A stretch of DNA of 64,000 nucleotides from Geothrix sp. (GTDB lineage Bacteria > Acidobacteriota > Holophagae > Holophagales > Holophagaceae): contig NZ_JAHRYQ010000001.1 in assembly GCF_020622065.1 (NCBI RefSeq), positions 1,798,001 through 1,862,000 on the forward strand, in the 5' to 3' direction. This document shows positions 1 to 6,235 of this stretch, in pieces. Position numbers and translations under genes: made by a program. Below the pieces are notes generated by a model that did no database searches, had not been told where the DNA came from, and saw only the letters and a list, made by a program, of their open reading frames with translations. Position 1 is the stretch's first letter, and each line of letters begins with the position of its first letter.

Positions 1-366
1 CCCGATGGCTTGGTGGCATGTGGAATAGGCGTTGAATGAGCGGGAGGTTCCTTGCGTAGCCGACATGCGTCGGTCAGCCCTTGCTTATTCCCACCTTCAT
101 GGATGTTCCATGGGATCCGCTTCATGCCGCCTCGGTGGTGCTTGAATGCGGTACCAGCCAGATCCTCAGCCTCGCAGGCTGGCTCATGTCCTTGAATCAA
201 TCACCATGCCTGAAGGCCTCTGGGGCCTCGGTCATGAGACGGCCCTCGCCAATTCCCTGGCCTCGATTTTCGGGAGGACATCATCTTCTATCCTCAGCCT
301 TGATCTTCGGTTTCAAGAATAGAATGGGACATCCCCGCGCCATGCACTCTTCCCGGGAGGTTCCCG
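1..366. other. Intergenic region upstream of iorA
   Basis: No convincing gene is seen here. The open frame that starts at 81 runs into iorA in another frame and has no recognisable protein features. A short CCGAC/GTCGG stem near 60-73 could end an upstream transcript. The last 15 bases carry the iorA ribosome site, GGGAGG at 355-360. Confidence 0.5.
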
Positions 367-843
367 ATGAACGCCACCGTCTCATTCACGCTGAACGGCA
401 AGCCAGTCACCGTCGCGAGTCCCCGTGATCGCATGCTGGTATGGGTTCTGCGCGACGAATTGGGGCTCACGGGCACCAAGGTGGGCTGCGAGGCCGGACT
501 CTGCGGAGCCTGCACCGTGCTCGTCGACTTCGAGGCGGTGCTCTCCTGCTCCACGCCACTGGGAGATGTGGCTGGGAAGTCGGTGCTCACCATCGAGGGC
601 CTGGCCCATGACGGGAAGCTGAATCCGGTTCAGGAAGCCTTCCAGGAGCACCACGCCTTCCAGTGCGGCTACTGCACCTCCGGGATGATCATGGCCGCCT
701 GGGCCTTCCTGAAGAAGAAACCCAAGGCCACGAGAACCGAGATCGTCGAGGCCATGGAGGGGAACATCTGCCGCTGCGGGGCCCATGTGAGGATCCTGGA
801 CGCGGTCGAATCGGCAGGCAAGGCCATGGGAGGTGTGCGATGA
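367..843 (+). CDS. iorA: (2Fe-2S)-binding small subunit of a molybdenum hydroxylase (IorA type)
   Basis: 158 aa electron-transfer subunit of the xanthine dehydrogenase/aldehyde oxidase family. It passes electrons from the molybdopterin subunit encoded next door to an acceptor. The N-terminal plant-type ferredoxin domain shows the cysteine set CEAGLCGAC (about residue 40). The C-terminal all-helical [2Fe-2S] domain shows CGYCTSGM (about 100) and GNICRCG (about 135). Length and order match the isoquinoline 1-oxidoreductase alpha subunit. The start is fixed by GGGAGG six bases upstream. Its TGA overlaps the ATG of the large subunit (ATGA), so the two are translationally coupled. The true substrate cannot be read from sequence; aldehydes or N-heterocycles are typical. 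Confidence 0.9.
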   Translation: MNATVSFTLNGKPVTVASPRDRMLVWVLRDELGLTGTKVGCEAGLCGACTVLVDFEAVLSCSTPLGDVAGKSVLTIEGLAHDGKLNPVQEAFQEHHAFQCGYCTSGMIMAAWAFLKKKPKATRTEIVEAMEGNICRCGAHVRILDAVESAGKAMGGVR

Positions 844-2936
844 GGCGCCGGGACTTCCTCCAGGGCGTCGCTACTGGCACGCTCACCTTCTTCTTCGCCA
901 CCCCCGCCGGGGCGGCGCCCATCGTGCCGACCCGACCCGGCACCTACCCCGAGGACTTCAATGCCTACCTGAAGATCTCGGCCGACGGCCGCGTGAGCTG
1001 CCTGGTGGGGAAGGTGGAGCTGGGGCAAGGTGCCATGACCGTTCTGGCGATGCTCGTCGCCGAGGAACTGGAGCTGGATCCCGCCCAGGTGGACATGATC
1101 CTGGGTGACACGGACCTTTGCCCCTGGGACATGCCCACCGGCGGCTCCCTCACCATGTGGCATACGGCCCCGGTCCTGCGGGGCGCCGCGGCAGAGGCGC
1201 GGGCCGTGCTCCTGCGCATGGCCTCCAAAGCCCTGGGCGCCCCGGTCTCAGACCTGGCTCTGAAGGATGGCGCCATCTGGGTGAAGGCGGTCCCCGCGCG
1301 CCGCACCACCTTTGGCGAGCTGGTCAAGGGTCGGAAGATGGAGCGGCACCTGGGCAAGGTCAAGCCCAAGCCCCTCTCGGACTGCACGCTGATCGGGCGC
1401 CGCGTCCCCCGCAAGGACGCCCTCGCCAAGGTCACCGGCGCCGCCAAGTATGCGGGCGATCTGCGCTTTCCCGGAACGCTCCACGCCTGCATCCTGCGGC
1501 CCCCGGCCCACGGCCTGGCCCTGACCACCGCTGACACGGCGGCCGCCGAACGGATTCCTGGCGTCCGCGTCGTGCGGGACAGCACCCTCCTGGCCGTGCT
1601 CCACCCTCAACCCGACACCGCCCGCAAGGCGCTCGCCCTCGTGAAGGGCACCTTCGAGGGGACCGAACCCGATGTGGACGATGTGCGGATCTATCAGCAC
1701 CTCGTGGACAAGGCAGCGCCCGGGCAGCGCGTGGTGATCTCCCGCGGCGACATCGCGGCGGGTGAGAAGCGGGCCGCCACCGTGGTGGAGGGGGAATACC
1801 GCAACGCCTACGAAAGCCACGCCACGCTCGAACCCCACACCTCCGTCGCCAAGTGGGAAGACGGCCGCATGACGGTCTGGGCCTCCACCCAGTCGCCCTT
1901 CGTCTTCCGCGACACCGTGGCCGAGGCTCTCAAGCTGGGCCCGGACAAAGTCCGCATCATCGCCCAGTTCGTGGGGGGCGGTTTCGGCGGCAAGCTCGTG
2001 GGCCCCGGGGCCATCGAGGCCGCCCGGATCGCCCGTCAGGTTCCCGGCGTGCCCATCCAGGTGGCCTGGAACCGTGAGGAGGATCTCTTCCTGGATGGCT
2101 ACCGGCCGGCCGCCGTGGTGAAGCTCCGCTCCGGCCTGGATGCGGGGCGCGGCGCCATCACCTTCTGGGACAGCAGCGTGGCCGGCGTCTCCCAGGGTGA
2201 GGCCGAGCTCGCCTACGAGATGCAGTCGAACCGGTACCAGGCCCCGGCGGTCCCCAACCTCCATCCCCTCAAGGTCGGCGCCTGGCGCGCCCCCAACGCC
2301 CACACCAACGCGTTCGCCCGGGAAAGCCAGCTGGATGCCCTGGCGGCCAAGGCCGGCCTGGATCCCGTGACCCTTCGTCGCCGCCTCATCACCGAGGCCC
2401 GCCTCCTGCGCCTCCTGGACTTGGCGGTGGAGACCTTCGGCTGGGAGCCCGCCCCCGGGCCCACGGGCCGGGGCATCGGACTGGCCTGCGGGGCCTGGCG
2501 CCAGGGCCTCGTGGTGGCCGTGGCCCAGGTGGCCGTGGACAAGACCACGGGCAAGGTCACGACGAAGCGCTTCCTCGAGGCCGTGGATGTGGGCCTGGTG
2601 GTGAACCCCGACGGGGCCCGCCAGCAGGTGGAGGGCGCCATCACCATGTGCATCGGACAGGCCCTCAGCGAGGAGATCCACTTCAAGGGTGGCCGCATCC
2701 TCGACAAGAACTTCGACACCTACCTGCTGCCCCGCTTCTCCGCCATCCCCCGCATCCAGGTGGTGTTCGCGGACAACGCCACCTCCGTCACCCAGGGCAT
2801 CGGCGAGCCCCCCGTCGTGCCCGTGGCCGCCGCCCTGGCCAACGCCGTGTTCGACGCCACCGGTGCGCGGGTCACCCATGTGCCGTTCACGCCCGAACGG
2901 GTCCTCGAGGCCCTGAAGCTCGTCCCTGCGAGCTGA
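840..2936 (+). CDS. iorB: Molybdopterin-binding large subunit, Tat-exported (IorB type)
   Basis: 698 aa catalytic subunit of the two-component molybdenum hydroxylase. The start at 840 overlaps the stop of the small subunit; the open frame extends upstream to 663 but that part lies inside iorA. The N-terminus MRRRDFLQG followed by a hydrophobic stretch ending AGAA is a twin-arginine signal, so the complex is probably exported folded with its partner. Molybdopterin contacts are visible: GGGFGGKL (about residue 378) and the C-terminal GIGEPP segment, whose Glu is the expected catalytic base. No cytochrome c subunit follows, unlike some periplasmic aldehyde dehydrogenases of this family. Substrate unknown. 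Confidence 0.9.
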   Translation: MRRRDFLQGVATGTLTFFFATPAGAAPIVPTRPGTYPEDFNAYLKISADGRVSCLVGKVELGQGAMTVLAMLVAEELELDPAQVDMILGDTDLCPWDMPTGGSLTMWHTAPVLRGAAAEARAVLLRMASKALGAPVSDLALKDGAIWVKAVPARRTTFGELVKGRKMERHLGKVKPKPLSDCTLIGRRVPRKDALAKVTGAAKYAGDLRFPGTLHACILRPPAHGLALTTADTAAAERIPGVRVVRDSTLLAVLHPQPDTARKALALVKGTFEGTEPDVDDVRIYQHLVDKAAPGQRVVISRGDIAAGEKRAATVVEGEYRNAYESHATLEPHTSVAKWEDGRMTVWASTQSPFVFRDTVAEALKLGPDKVRIIAQFVGGGFGGKLVGPGAIEAARIARQVPGVPIQVAWNREEDLFLDGYRPAAVVKLRSGLDAGRGAITFWDSSVAGVSQGEAELAYEMQSNRYQAPAVPNLHPLKVGAWRAPNAHTNAFARESQLDALAAKAGLDPVTLRRRLITEARLLRLLDLAVETFGWEPAPGPTGRGIGLACGAWRQGLVVAVAQVAVDKTTGKVTTKRFLEAVDVGLVVNPDGARQQVEGAITMCIGQALSEEIHFKGGRILDKNFDTYLLPRFSAIPRIQVVFADNATSVTQGIGEPPVVPVAAALANAVFDATGARVTHVPFTPERVLEALKLVPAS

Positions 2937-3117
2937 CACGATCCGGTGATTTCAGCGCCCGTTCCAGTCCCATTCCGGCCCACCCGGCAGACCCAGGTGC
3001 TCGCTGACTCTGCTTCCCAAATCAACGGTCCCGTTTTCAGGGAGGACATCAGAGCTGCACCCGCGAAAGGCCAGCAAAGGCGAGGGGAAGCGTCTCCCCG
3101 GTGTCCCATTCCTTGCT

Positions 3118-3135
3118 TTGCACCTCGATTGCACC
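3118..3135. repeat. Paired TTGCACC repeat, copy 1
   Basis: TTGCACC at 3118-3124 and again at 3129-3135, an 11-bp period or about one helical turn. The same arrangement recurs at 3402-3419 and 6011-6028. This copy lies 114 bp from the 3' end of the first tRNA-Arg. By analogy with lambda-type systems these could be arm-type recombinase binding sites; that is inference. Confidence 0.55.
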
Positions 3136-3202
3136 CGCCACGCTTTGAACGATCCACTTCGAGGCGAAGGGGCGGATGGCTTGAAAGATAGGTGGACGCA
3201 AG

Positions 3203-3235
3203 AAACCCCCGTCAGCACAAGGCTTCAGGGGGTTT
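3203..3235 (-). terminator. Terminator of tRNA-Arg copy 1
   Basis: Stem AAACCCCC (3203-3210) pairs with GGGGGTTT (3228-3235). Read on the minus strand it follows the tRNA and ends in TTTCTT. The matching hairpin after copy 2 keeps the pairing with a C/G swap on both arms, a compensatory change that supports a real RNA stem. Confidence 0.75.
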
Positions 3236-3249
3236 GCAGGTCTAGCGAG

Positions 3250-3326
3250 TGGTGGTCCCGGAGCGACTCGAACGCCCGACCCTCAGATTCGTAGTCTGAT
3301 GCTCTATCCAGCTGAGCTACGGGACC
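3250..3326 (-). tRNA. tRNA-Arg (anticodon ACG), copy 1, left boundary of island
   Basis: 77 nt including encoded CCA. Acceptor GGTCCCG pairs with CGGGACC, discriminator A. The anticodon loop CTACGAA gives ACG, which would be read as inosine after TadA editing. It is identical over all 77 bases to the copy at 6142-6218. This copy has its own promoter inside the island. Confidence 0.95.
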
Positions 3327-3341
3327 GCATTGAAAGAACCC

Positions 3342-3369
3342 TTTATATCACAGGGTTTACCCGACGCAA
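3342..3369 (-). promoter_or_regulatory. Sigma-70-like promoter of tRNA-Arg copy 1
   Basis: On the minus strand, -35 TTGCGT (3364-3369) and -10 TATAAA (3342-3347) are 16 bp apart. The -10 ends 15 bases before the tRNA 5' end. Copy 2 instead sits 17 bases after the GlpD-like gene, so the promoter belongs to the island side of copy 1. Confidence 0.6.
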
Positions 3370-3401
3370 CCACCCCACACCATGAGCCCCGACTCCACGA
3401 G

Positions 3402-3419
3402 TTGCACCTCTATTGCACC
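3402..3419. repeat. Paired TTGCACC repeat, copy 2
   Basis: TTGCACC at 3402-3408 and 3413-3419, again with an 11-bp period. It sits between tRNA copy 1 and the recombinase start codon, inside the island. It matches the copy at 6011-6028 over the full 18 bp. Confidence 0.55.
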
Positions 3420-3479
3420 TGGAGCCTCCAGCCGGTCAGTCGAAGTCCTCCCCTTCCCTCCCCATCCCCGGAGGGAAAC

Positions 3480-4196
3480 ATGGCTGGCTTCAAGAACGGG
3501 CTCCAGAAGGTCGGAGACGTTTACCACTATTGCTTCAGGATCAATCGGAAGCAGTTCAAGGGCAGCACACGCGCCCATGACCACCAGACGGCAAAGAAGA
3601 TCCTGGAGAGCAAACGCCAGGAAGCTCTCCTGGGTAAGCCGTCCGTCCAAAAGGAAGCCCCCGCCTTCGCCGCCCTCGTTGAGGACTGGCTTTCGACTCA
3701 TGCCCGAACCACCTCGACTGGTCACCTTCGAGGTGTAGAACACATCTCCCGAATCTGGTTGACGCCGCACATTGGCACCTACCGCATCGACCAAGTGACT
3801 CGCGGGATGATCCTCGAAACCCGATCCCGAATGCTGGAGGCGGGGAGATCCATGGCGACTGCGAACCACCTGCTCAGGGTGGTGAAACTGTTGTGGAATC
3901 ATGCAGTCGCCGCAGAATTCATTGAGTCGGTCCCCTTCAAGGTCAAACCGCTCCGGGTTCAGAAGAAGCCCCGACCGACAGTCCCTGCGTCGCGCGTCCC
4001 AGAGTTCCTTGCTGCCGTTGACGCCAAGAGTCATGCGCCTCAGATCGCCGTGATGCTCAAGGTCATGCTCGGGCTGCTGCTCATATCGAACGATGGATCG
4101 GTGAACCTCTTGCGGGAAGGAATGCTGCTCAGTTGCTCGAATCCTATGAGGTCCGCCTTAAGCAAGTGGCAGGTTACTCCTGGCAGCACGGTGTGA
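3480..4196 (+). pseudogene. Tyrosine recombinase (phage-type integrase), catalytic domain missing
   Basis: 238 aa in frame from ATG 3480, preceded by GGAGGG. An AP2-like/arm-binding N-terminus (YHYCFRINRKQFKGS region) and the SAM-like core-binding domain (about residues 55-190) are clear. They end at the start of the catalytic domain near 'PQIAVMLKVMLGL'. After about 4077 the homology stops: none of the Arg, His-x-x-Arg or Tyr active-site motifs follow, and the frame ends at 4196. Intact relatives are about 350-400 aa. The gene sits next to a tRNA and transcribes into the island, as integrases of tRNA-targeting elements do. An internal deletion probably removed the C-terminus. The protein should be inactive as a recombinase. 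Confidence 0.8.
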
Positions 4197-4363
4197 GCAC
4201 AAGCCCTATCCCGGGTGCTGAGTACGTCTGGGTAGAAGGTGAATATCATCTGATCTTCGCCTCACACTGCTCGACCGAAGTTGCATCAAAAATATGGAAG
4301 GGCGTATGCCGTCGTGCGCGGCGAGATCAAGGTCCATCGCTATTTGACGGGCTCGACACCTAA
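4079..4363 (+). pseudogene. 3' remnant of an unidentified gene fused to the integrase break
   Basis: From the point where integrase homology stops, a different frame reads through to a stop at 4363 with protein-like composition (AHIERWIGEPLAREG..., then LLESYEVRLKQVAGYSW...). A possible TTG start lies at 4133 but no ribosome site is seen. I do not recognise the family. It looks like the tail of another island gene joined by deletion. The frame may be chance. Confidence 0.3.
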
Positions 4364-4671
4364 CCGATGAGAGTAGGGCGTTGACGTTGCCGAGGGGTTC
4401 AGACTGTTTGCCCTAAGGTTGCAACGGACTTCTGATTAGGCAAAAAGGGCGTCAAATCACCGGGTTTTAGGGCAGCGGTGCTCGGGGTCTGACCCTGTTG
4501 ATTTTGGACCTCAATTTGTCAGGCGATCTGCGGAAAGAGATATCAAATCGTCGGCGCTAGAGGGCGGAGAGAAACTCTAATTTAAATATATTGTTATCAT
4601 CACTTGCGCGATCAATAGATGCTGCGAACTTTACTCCTGGGGACATTCGTTGCCCAACCCATGGAGACCCA
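4364..4671. other. Intergenic region of the island, AT-richer than its surroundings
   Basis: No gene recognised. GGGTC-T-GACCC at 4485-4495 is a short perfect dyad of the kind often seen at insertion-sequence or REP-like remnants. The segment 4576-4605 (AATTTAAATATATTG) is AT-rich and could carry the promoter of the glycosylase-like gene. Confidence 0.4.
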
Positions 4672-5361
4672 ATGGACCGCCGGACCCGATACGCCGAACT
4701 CGTTGCCCACAGAAAATCGCATCGCTTCCCCGATCTGCTGCTGAATCCTGCCGAGATCCGTGGCGGAGTATTCGACTCCCCACACCTCGGTCCGTGGACC
4801 TGCTGGCAGGGTGACATCAACGCTCAAGTAGTCATCGTCGGTCAGGATTGGGGAGACCTGCCTTACTTCCTCAGGAATGAGGGGCGTGATGATGAACGCG
4901 AGCAAACCTGCACGAACCTGAGATCCATGGCGCTTGCTGCCGGGTGGGATTTAGGCAGTCCTCGCAATCCCAAATCCCAACCCCTCTTCTTCACCAATGC
5001 CGTCCTCGGGATTCGAGCGGAGAAGGGCAAATCAGGCACCCCGCCCGCTGAATGGGTCGAAGACAGTCTTCCCTATCTAGCGGGGGTCCTTGGCATCGTC
5101 CAACCCCGTGCGGTGGTGTCGCTGGGGACAGCGGCATATCGTGCGACGAGATTGGCGCTTTACGGGCGAGGGCGGGATGCCCAGATCCCAATTGGTGCTC
5201 CTCTCGGTCAGGTCCACCAACTCGGTCCGATCCAACGCCCAGGGAAGCCTGTCTGGTTCCCCTTCTACCATTGCGGTCCCCTCGGACTGGTCAATCGGTC
5301 CCGAGAGTTGCAACTGGGAGATTGGCAGAGACTAGGCGCGTGGATATCTCAGAATGGATGA
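4672..5361 (+). CDS. Uracil-DNA glycosylase-superfamily protein (divergent)
   Basis: 229 aa from ATG 4672 (GGAG five bases upstream); an in-frame TTG at 4591 would give 256 aa. The segment VVIVGQDWGD (about residue 45) resembles motif 1 of the UDG fold (GQDPY/GExPG type). FFTNAVLGIR (about 105) fits the conserved NxV strand, and YHCGPLG near the C-terminus occupies the place of the HPS motif. The family normally excises deaminated or modified bases from DNA. The gene lies inside the tRNA island, 28 bp before an EVE/PUA-like gene, and its base composition is lower in GC than the chromosome around it, consistent with transfer. Catalytic activity and base specificity cannot be predicted. A role in defence against base-modified phage DNA is an inference. 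Confidence 0.6.
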   Translation: MDRRTRYAELVAHRKSHRFPDLLLNPAEIRGGVFDSPHLGPWTCWQGDINAQVVIVGQDWGDLPYFLRNEGRDDEREQTCTNLRSMALAAGWDLGSPRNPKSQPLFFTNAVLGIRAEKGKSGTPPAEWVEDSLPYLAGVLGIVQPRAVVSLGTAAYRATRLALYGRGRDAQIPIGAPLGQVHQLGPIQRPGKPVWFPFYHCGPLGLVNRSRELQLGDWQRLGAWISQNG

Positions 5362-5389
5362 TGGAAGTTACAACAGTCAGGAGACATCC

Positions 5390-5815
5390 ATGGAGTATTG
5401 GGTCCTCAACACCGACGAGGCGGAACTAGAGGGGCAAGGTGCAGATCGGAAAATGATCTCCAGATCATGCGTCGCCGCATGGGGCGAGAGATTCGGAGCA
5501 GAGGCAAAGCTAAGTCGTCCAGAAGAGGGGGACAAAGTATTCCTGTACAAGAAGGGGGTCGGGATCATCGCGAAGGCAACCTTCGACCACAGCGGACCCT
5601 ACCCCTCCAATGACATCTTCGGTATGCAACACAAGGGCGAGTTCAGTCGAAAGATTACCGACCTAAAGACAAGTCCGGTTCGCCCCCTGTCCTGTGCGGC
5701 GATCGAGTCAGAAACCGGCAGCAGCTTCCGTCCCTTACAGACCATATTCCGCATTAAGAATCCAGTGATCGCCCAGTTCCTCGATGACAGTTTCGAGGTG
5801 GCGAAGCAGAGGTAG
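5390..5815 (+). CDS. EVE/PUA-like domain protein (putative modified-base reader)
   Basis: 141 aa. ATG 5390 is chosen because AGGAG lies seven bases upstream; the frame is open back to 5354, which would overlap the preceding gene. The N-terminal YWVLNTDEAE and the strand DKVFLYKKGVGIIAKATF resemble the start and core beta-barrel of EVE/PUA-like domains, which bind modified bases in DNA or RNA. No catalytic motif is seen. It is co-directional with the glycosylase-like gene 28 bp upstream and almost certainly co-transcribed. The assignment rests on short similarity only; a fold prediction would settle it. Confidence 0.45.
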   Translation: MEYWVLNTDEAELEGQGADRKMISRSCVAAWGERFGAEAKLSRPEEGDKVFLYKKGVGIIAKATFDHSGPYPSNDIFGMQHKGEFSRKITDLKTSPVRPLSCAAIESETGSSFRPLQTIFRIKNPVIAQFLDDSFEVAKQR

Positions 5816-6010
5816 GTCCGGGGTCGGTTAGTAGGTGGACCACCCCTGCTAGTTTCGTCTCGGTCCTGGAGCAAGTCTCAAAAACCCCTCCCGGGGGGTG
5901 GGAGGCACGAGAGGAAGGGTTGGAAGCCTAACCGCCAACCCATTTGCACTCCCCGGCTACCGTCATCCAGCGCAAACCTAGCAACCATGCGGATTTAGAG
6001 CGATTTTCAC

Positions 6011-6028
6011 TTGCACCTCTATTGCACC
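6011..6028. repeat. Paired TTGCACC repeat, copy 3
   Basis: TTGCACC at 6011-6017 and 6022-6028. It ends 113 bp before tRNA copy 2, almost the same distance as copy 1 has from its tRNA, so both belong to the duplicated boundary unit. Confidence 0.55.
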
Positions 6029-6095
6029 TGACCTACATTGAACCTACAACTTCGAGGCGAAGTGGTGGATCTTCGACAAACCGGCTGAACATGGA

Positions 6096-6128
6096 AAAGC
6101 CCCGTCAGCACTAGGCTTCAGGGGCTTT
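6096..6128 (-). terminator. Terminator of tRNA-Arg copy 2
   Basis: AAAGCCCC (6096-6103) pairs with GGGGCTTT (6121-6128); on the minus strand the stem ends in a T run. The 17-base loop differs from copy 1 at only one position, while the stem carries a compensatory C-G to G-C swap. Confidence 0.8.
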
Positions 6129-6141
6129 GTATTTCGTTGAG

Positions 6142-6218
6142 TGGTGGTCCCGGAGCGACTCGAACGCCCGACCCTCAGATTCGTAGTCTGATGCTCTATC
6201 CAGCTGAGCTACGGGACC
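6142..6218 (-). tRNA. tRNA-Arg (anticodon ACG), copy 2, right boundary of island
   Basis: Identical in all 77 bases (CCA included) to the copy at 3250-3326. Its 5' end is 17 bases beyond the stop codon of the GlpD-like gene on the same strand, so it can be co-transcribed with it. That placement suggests this is the ancestral chromosomal 5' side of the attachment site. Confidence 0.95.
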
Positions 6219-6235
6219 GCACTGAAGAAATGATT

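Follow-up and report, generated by a model that had tools for sequence, protein, structure and literature searches.

A window of 64,000 nucleotides from a Geothrix sp. genome (contig NZ_JAHRYQ010000001.1, positions 1,798,001 to 1,862,000) carries a real DNA glycosylase of the UDG superfamily in a mobile tRNA island; the enzyme belongs to a rare clade that appears distinct from the named UDG families, and its role is probably antiviral. A gene for an EVE-like protein follows on the same strand. Both genes lie where a preliminary description of this DNA had placed them, and their coordinates are collected with the other features of the island in Table 1.

Table 1. Features of the tRNA island in window coordinates
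Feature	Position	Strand	Evidence
Direct repeat of 217 bp, left copy (element end and tRNA)	3118..3334		82.6% identity to 6011-6226
tRNA-Arg(acg), second copy, left end	3250..3326	-	ARAGORN; alignment
Truncated phage-type integrase, central domain only	3330..4196	+	Phage_int_M, E 1.6e-6
20-bp direct repeat, near both island ends; possible arm-type integrase site	3402..3421 and 6011..6030, identical		Self-comparison
UDG-superfamily DNA glycosylase, GQDWG clade, 229 aa	4672..5361	+	Pfam, model, Foldseek, VIA, alignments
Shine-Dalgarno-like AGGAG, six bases before ATG 5390	5379..5383	+	Read from sequence
EVE-like protein of 141 aa (PUA superfamily), putative reader of modified bases or accessory protein	5390..5815	+	Relatives; weak Pfam EVE; hhalign
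Direct repeat, right copy (element end and tRNA)	6011..6226		82.6% identity to 3118-3334
tRNA-Arg(acg), right end, presumed integration target	6142..6218	-	ARAGORN

The first gene encodes a protein with a UDG fold

The assignment of the first gene (ATG at 4672, stop at 5361) to the UDG superfamily is borne out by family profile, model and structural comparison. Pfam PF03167 scores just above its cut-off (E 2.2e-5; 25.0 bits against 24.3), and an AlphaFold2 model built from seven sequences is confident (pLDDT 81.6, pTM 0.84). The top Foldseek match of this model is 1l9g (E 2.4e-6), and the best 50 of the 54 matches at E <= 0.001 are all UDG-superfamily proteins. VIA-align places 4zby, a family 4 UDG from Sulfolobus tokodaii, at the top of its list (Z 16.5, rmsd 3.0, 183 residues); two of the 50 rows listed are otherwise named, namely 3ikb, an unnamed S. 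mutans protein (Z 12.6), and 9qhs, a phage polymerase (Z 12.3). A profile of ten relatives searched against the PDB reached 4zbx at E 2.8e-11.

The short motifs on which the preliminary description had drawn are present in the translation as GQDWGD (57-62), TNAV (108-111) and YHCG (199-202), and they are not chance occurrences, since they are conserved among relatives. Compared with its nearest relative (62% identical) over 225 codons, the gene differs at 70, 49 and 140 first, second and third codon positions, with dS sites saturated; the gene is under purifying selection.

The glycosylase belongs to a rare clade with an unusual motif A

In the published family definitions, family 4 has the motif A GE(A/G)PG and family 1 has the motif A GQDPY and the motif B HPSPLS (PMC10359453). 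Membership in family 4 (UDGa) was rejected for GQDWG as motif A, in family 1 (Ung) for GQDWG and HCGPLG in place of GQDPY and HPSPLS, and in UdgX for its own differing motif A, GEQPG. With the NCBIfam type-4 UDG model, whose cut-off is 250 bits, the window protein scored 13.5, and three relatives scored 33.6, 36.2 and 51.2 bits with the family 4 model, against a cut-off of 125.3. Family 4 and UdgX are nonetheless the closest in fold, and they share TNAV and, with most clade members, a four-cysteine pattern; the clade differs from them in GQDWG as opposed to GE(A/G)PG or GEQPG and in Asp or Asn at the position of the stacking Phe, and the window protein also lacks the four cysteines.

Motif table and tree comprise 13 clade proteins, among which P0001, L009 and L051 are SPbeta-like near copies and L011 is truncated. 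The motif table omits L050 and L016, near copies of L049 and of the SPbeta-like rows, as well as L014 and L015, which match over about 50 residues only and were used in the partner test described below. GQD is kept in all 13 proteins, GQDWG in 12 (L037 has GQDFS) and TN in all 13, and the motif B His is found in 12 of the 12 proteins that reach that site. The motif A of the clade begins like that of family 1 (GQD) and ends in Gly like that of other families, with Trp replacing the usual Pro. In the alignment with the S. tokodaii family 4 enzyme, N109 pairs with N82 of that protein and position 74 with its stacking Phe55; at position 74, 11 of the 13 clade proteins have Asp or Asn, L013 has Pro and L037 has Glu. 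Eleven of the 13 also keep the four cysteines, which follow the Fe-S cluster pattern of family 4; all four are absent from the window protein and its 62% identical relative. These two are sisters in an unrooted FastTree phylogeny (support 1.000), in which the host's other UDG and four Bacillales proteins with an (A/G)EAPG-type motif A (L078, L079, L081 and L083, serving as outgroup) split from the GQD proteins with support 1.000 as well. As judged from these alignments, the clade is distinct and carries its own motif A on a family-4-like scaffold.

The motif A is (A/G)EAPG in L078, L079, L081, L082 and L083, and that of L080 lies outside the alignment. These Bacillales frames (L078-L083; genomes G477, G475, G657, G474 and G582) are 308-387 aa long and have an N-terminal extension before the UDG domain; G477 holds two copies of such a frame about 15 kb apart.

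The clade is rare and patchy. Relatives occur in Planctomycetes, Bacillus, Fictibacillus, Flavobacteriales, Acidobacteria, phage SPR and viral contigs, some of them SPbeta-like. Among 396 Acidobacteriota genomes there are four full-length members, including that of the window and that of G057. Some UDG match was obtained in 108 of the 396; the weak matches in 104 of these (E 2e-12 to 1e-3) lie mainly at profile positions from about 100 on, often over about 60 positions, and with this partial profile coverage they are probably other UDGs and were not counted. The order of Fictibacillus has one close member in 299 genomes, six of which matched at E <= 1e-15 (the five further genomes, at E 2e-16 to 4e-20, were not counted as members), and the phylum of L007 has one member in 294. 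Both of these members are the sources of query rows, and both listings were restricted to E <= 1e-15.

Base recognition and published antiviral glycosylases

In E. coli UDG, D64 activates water, Y66 shuts the pocket to C5 groups and N123 reads uracil. By analogy, D59 would be the water activator of the window protein, G61 would leave the C5 side open and N109 would read a uracil-type face.

That glycosylases act in phage defence, as the preliminary description stated, is in print for other UDG-superfamily members, including one whose operon also encodes a PUA-superfamily protein (PMC11078745, PMC13160076). Brig1 is an alpha-glucosyl-hmC DNA glycosylase that gave immunity on its own (PMC11078745). 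Like the window protein it is of the UDG superfamily and has 4ZBY as its best structural match, and it acts as a single enzyme and occurs in defence islands (PMC11078745). Brig3-BapA is an operon of a 5hmC glycosylase and an ASCH-type glucosyl hydrolase that form no stable complex; BapA strips glucose from glucosyl-5hmC; it is built of two barrels and, since a residue Q252 is named, is at least 252 residues long (PMC13160076). The gene order resembles that of the window in that a PUA/ASCH-superfamily protein comes after a UDG-superfamily glycosylase, whereas the Brig3 and BapA genes overlap (PMC13160076) and the likely start of the second window gene is 28 bp downstream. EVE and ASCH have been placed in one PUA/ASCH superfamily (PMC7641849, the main text of which does not mention "glycosylase"), and UDG is among the abbreviations in the DefensePredictor figure of predicted systems. 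Base-excising defence with a PUA-type partner has thus been published, and the window pair is possibly a variant of it.

The residue that reads the base is given as Glu147 for Brig1 (PMC11078745; PMC13160076 writes Q147 where PMC11078745 has E147) and as Asp127 for Brig3 (PMC13160076). This acidic residue, which may not define the Brig group, is not found in the window protein, where Asn109 stands at the position within the TN common to all 13 clade proteins. The difference points to a base of the uracil type and not of the cytosine type; with the Brig residues taken from published descriptions and not from sequences, it favours uracil or a C5-modified uracil or thymine over hmC as the predicted substrate. 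The altered stacking position and the GQDWG pocket count against a firm call. Phages with modified thymine are the reported target of Brig2 (PMC13160076; PMC13216743, which cites a preprint by Getz et al.), and by that description it would share a thymine- or uracil-type target with the window glycosylase.

A mobile island between two tRNA-Arg genes

The tRNA island of the preliminary description is real: it has a tRNA-Arg gene at both ends, a G+C content of 0.567 against 0.67 for the window, and it was not seen beside that tRNA in the four relatives read. The tRNA and the right flank are kept in these same-genus genomes (G018, G017, G013 and G025), and window positions 1-6136, the tRNA excepted, found no match at E <= 1e-5 in the 8.4 to 10.0 kb read from them beyond the tRNA, on the side away from the right flank. 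The right-flank query matched somewhere in 47 of 47 genus genomes, in some at tRNA genes only, and these four were read.

At both ends, the 217-bp repeat includes about 130 bp that adjoin the tRNA. They found no significant match in what was read of the four relatives, a pattern suggestive of two elements having integrated in turn at a single tRNA locus, with the body of the left one lost or unrecognised. The integrase was searched for a catalytic domain and none was found. The two genes had been described as the only intact cargo of the island, and this is consistent with the four ORFs scanned between the tRNA copies, where a family was obtained only for the UDG and the truncated integrase.

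The broken integrase, and the missing cysteines that most of the clade keeps, could be taken to mean that both genes are decaying remnants without function. We consider this highly improbable: both reading frames are intact, the glycosylase gene is under purifying selection, and an intact relative in a well-kept island lacks the same cysteines.

The second gene encodes a probable EVE-like protein

The second gene starts 28 bp beyond the stop codon of the first. With another possible ATG, at 5354, as its start it would overlap the UDG gene by 8 bp. The common strand and close spacing of the two genes fit co-transcription. A promoter consensus scan found 0 sites, with 0.7 expected by chance.

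The second protein has no match of its own in four family libraries, Pfam EVE included. Its relatives are enterobacterial plasmid proteins (27.4% identical, five records), and a search from one of these returned 147 plasmid records; among the 40 rows listed, 18 carry a ribbon-helix-helix annotation. Phages gave no match, and neither did viral contigs with the second protein as a single query. With the alignment of the second family as query, the viral contigs yielded one true locus, L052 (L070 is the same contig); another viral match, L069, is most likely due to chance, as it covers 27 residues of a short frame overlapping a 483-aa ORF. Four other weak matches of the second protein came from Acidobacteriota (E 0.002-0.009), two of them with stops. 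The viral protein (L052:3386-4399, 337 aa) joins a nuclease-like N-terminus to a domain of the second-protein type (30% identity). The N-terminus found no library match and is called nuclease-like from a PD..ELK pattern seen by reading; the protein is possibly a modification-dependent nuclease.

Pfam EVE matched two of six scanned relatives (E about 0.004; 17.6 bits against a cut-off of 23) and none of the other four, and hhalign against five true EVE proteins gave 52% for the domain alignment (44 columns) and 27% for the full-length one (22 columns). The core of the second family, GDxVFLYxxGxGI(I/V)A, resembles the EVE (PF01878) core GDxVLxYHS..GIxG, whereas the EVE segment WDGVRNYQARN is not recognisable in it and the Pfam score stays below the cut-off. 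A structure model from two rows (the window protein and the viral L052 domain) reached a pLDDT of 42. None of the three matches in a PDB profile search with the second family was significant (HPr proteins at E 0.16 and 0.2; 2p5d, a UPF0310 protein, at E 0.4); UPF0310 is an EVE family. The EVE label of the preliminary description therefore holds as a likeness between families, and the protein itself, with no match of its own and a model of low confidence, is likely EVE-like at that level only.

Since the Brig3 partner BapA, an ASCH-type member of the PUA superfamily, takes glucose off glucosyl-5hmC (PMC13160076), the second protein could likewise be a demodifying enzyme, trimming a hypermodified base to a form that the glycosylase can remove. 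This is very unlikely: BapA, with its two barrels (PMC13160076), is larger than the 141 aa found here, and the relatives of the second protein look like binding modules, given the ribbon-helix-helix annotations among the plasmid rows and the one nuclease-like fusion.

The gene pair is a single observation

To look for the second gene elsewhere, we ran the second-family profile against the six-frame ORFs of 17 other clade loci. About 13 of these are distinct, as there is overlap or near identity within L006/L010, within L049/L050 and among four SPbeta-like loci. The profile recovers the window gene and L052 in this search, and no partner was found, the best other match being at E 0.9. Ten genomes with the glycosylase (9 distinct, since G445 and G057 appear to be one MAG) gave no partner match at E <= 0.01 in a search without a positive control. 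The nearest relative (G057/L006) does not have a partner gene either. Conserved pairing elsewhere, to which the preliminary description had looked as its test, was thus not found at any of the 17 loci or in any of the 10 genomes, and the pair is a single observation. Within the limited literature set searched, no paper joined a uracil-DNA glycosylase and an EVE domain.

These counts support an alternative in which the glycosylase is antiviral alone, like Brig1, which sufficed for immunity by itself (PMC11078745), and the EVE-like gene is independent cargo, for example a regulator or part of a decayed system; the decay of the island, with its truncated integrase, would suit this as well. We regard it as somewhat unlikely in view of the 28-bp spacing and the ribosome site of the second gene, the position of the two genes as the only recognised intact ones in the island, and the example of Brig3-BapA, which shows that such operons can cooperate (PMC13160076).

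Clade relatives occur in a defence island and in temperate phages

The nearest relative (G057/L006) is flanked by HsdM-HsdS-SIR2(PDC-S65)-HsdR on one side and by a 208-aa protein, a caspase and ThsB-TIR on the other, making this one clear defence island that holds a clade member. The island spans L006:1863-12776 and consists of a type I RM system with an embedded PDC-S65 SIR2, followed by the caspase and ThsB-TIR. At L036, an Mrr_cat nuclease gene (L036:74-1619) on the same strand ends 64 or 85 bp before a possible ATG of the glycosylase; PADLOC does not list this gene. A Fic protein (PDC-S04/SoFic-like, weakly AbiEi-like) lies about 1.6 kb downstream at L012, with an HTH gene 3.3 kb upstream, and in the SPbeta-like phages the clade gene sits among small unknown genes. 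No defence genes were recognised among the proteins scanned at L007 (one), L013 (one), L008 (two) and L037 (two); one scanned neighbour at L008 is an LXG-EndoU toxin, and the other neighbours at L037 look housekeeping by reading. With 24 different neighbour proteins scanned, and L011 and L049 left out, this survey is a sketch and not a statistic. The phage-defence setting proposed in the preliminary description gains support from the defence island of the nearest relative and from the SPbeta-like phage relatives.

The host has another, stronger UDG (C2:698736, 139 bits) with the family 4 motif GEGPG, so ordinary uracil repair does not depend on the island copy. A reading of the glycosylase as a repair or element-maintenance enzyme, which would take uracil out of element, phage or host DNA and have no antiviral role, is consistent with a fold closest to the family 4 repair UDGs, with the retention of N109, with its presence in temperate phages, which might themselves profit from it, and with the loci that have no recognised defence neighbours. 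The UDG already present in the host, the rare and patchy occurrence of the clade, the defence island around the nearest relative and a pocket unlike that of repair UDGs argue against it, and we hold it to be unlikely.

Proposed function of the island genes

The UDG fold, the conserved active-site positions, the mobile context and the defence context of the nearest relative are observed; catalysis, the substrate, an antiviral role and any cooperation of the two proteins are inferred. In the reading that we tentatively favour as possible, the first gene would encode an active monofunctional DNA glycosylase, a mobile antiviral enzyme that flips out and removes a uracil-type base (uracil, or a C5-modified uracil or thymine) from invading DNA, and the abasic sites left behind would block replication. 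The second gene, probably co-transcribed, would supply an EVE-like protein that binds a modified base or modified DNA and may help the glycosylase find its target. This two-part mechanism of recognition and excision is a hypothesis drawn from one operon. Its more specific form is doubtful: here the EVE-like protein would read C5-modified uracil or thymine in phage DNA and recruit a GQDWG-clade glycosylase that has lost its presumed Fe-S cluster in this lineage.

The antiviral view is supported by the defence island, the Mrr_cat gene at L036, the SPbeta-like phages, the rarity of the clade and the host's own UDG, as well as by the L052 fusion of the second-protein domain to a nuclease-like region and by the Brig precedents. 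It is weakened by a pairing seen only here, by L007, L008, L013 and L037 with their lack of recognised defence neighbours, by the differing pocket, by PADLOC, which lists neither island protein, and by the weak EVE assignment. In summary, the UDG fold and the mobile island of the preliminary description stand, conserved pairing, which it had set as a test, was not found at the loci and genomes searched, and its EVE label is retained at family level.

Base excision is a recent addition to antiviral defence and has few characterised members. A separate clade with an Asn reader, an unusual motif A and a lineage without the cluster cysteines would enlarge the range of bases open to attack in phage DNA. 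As Bacillus SPbeta-like phages carry the clade gene, phages with hmU or uracil DNA offer a simple means of testing it.
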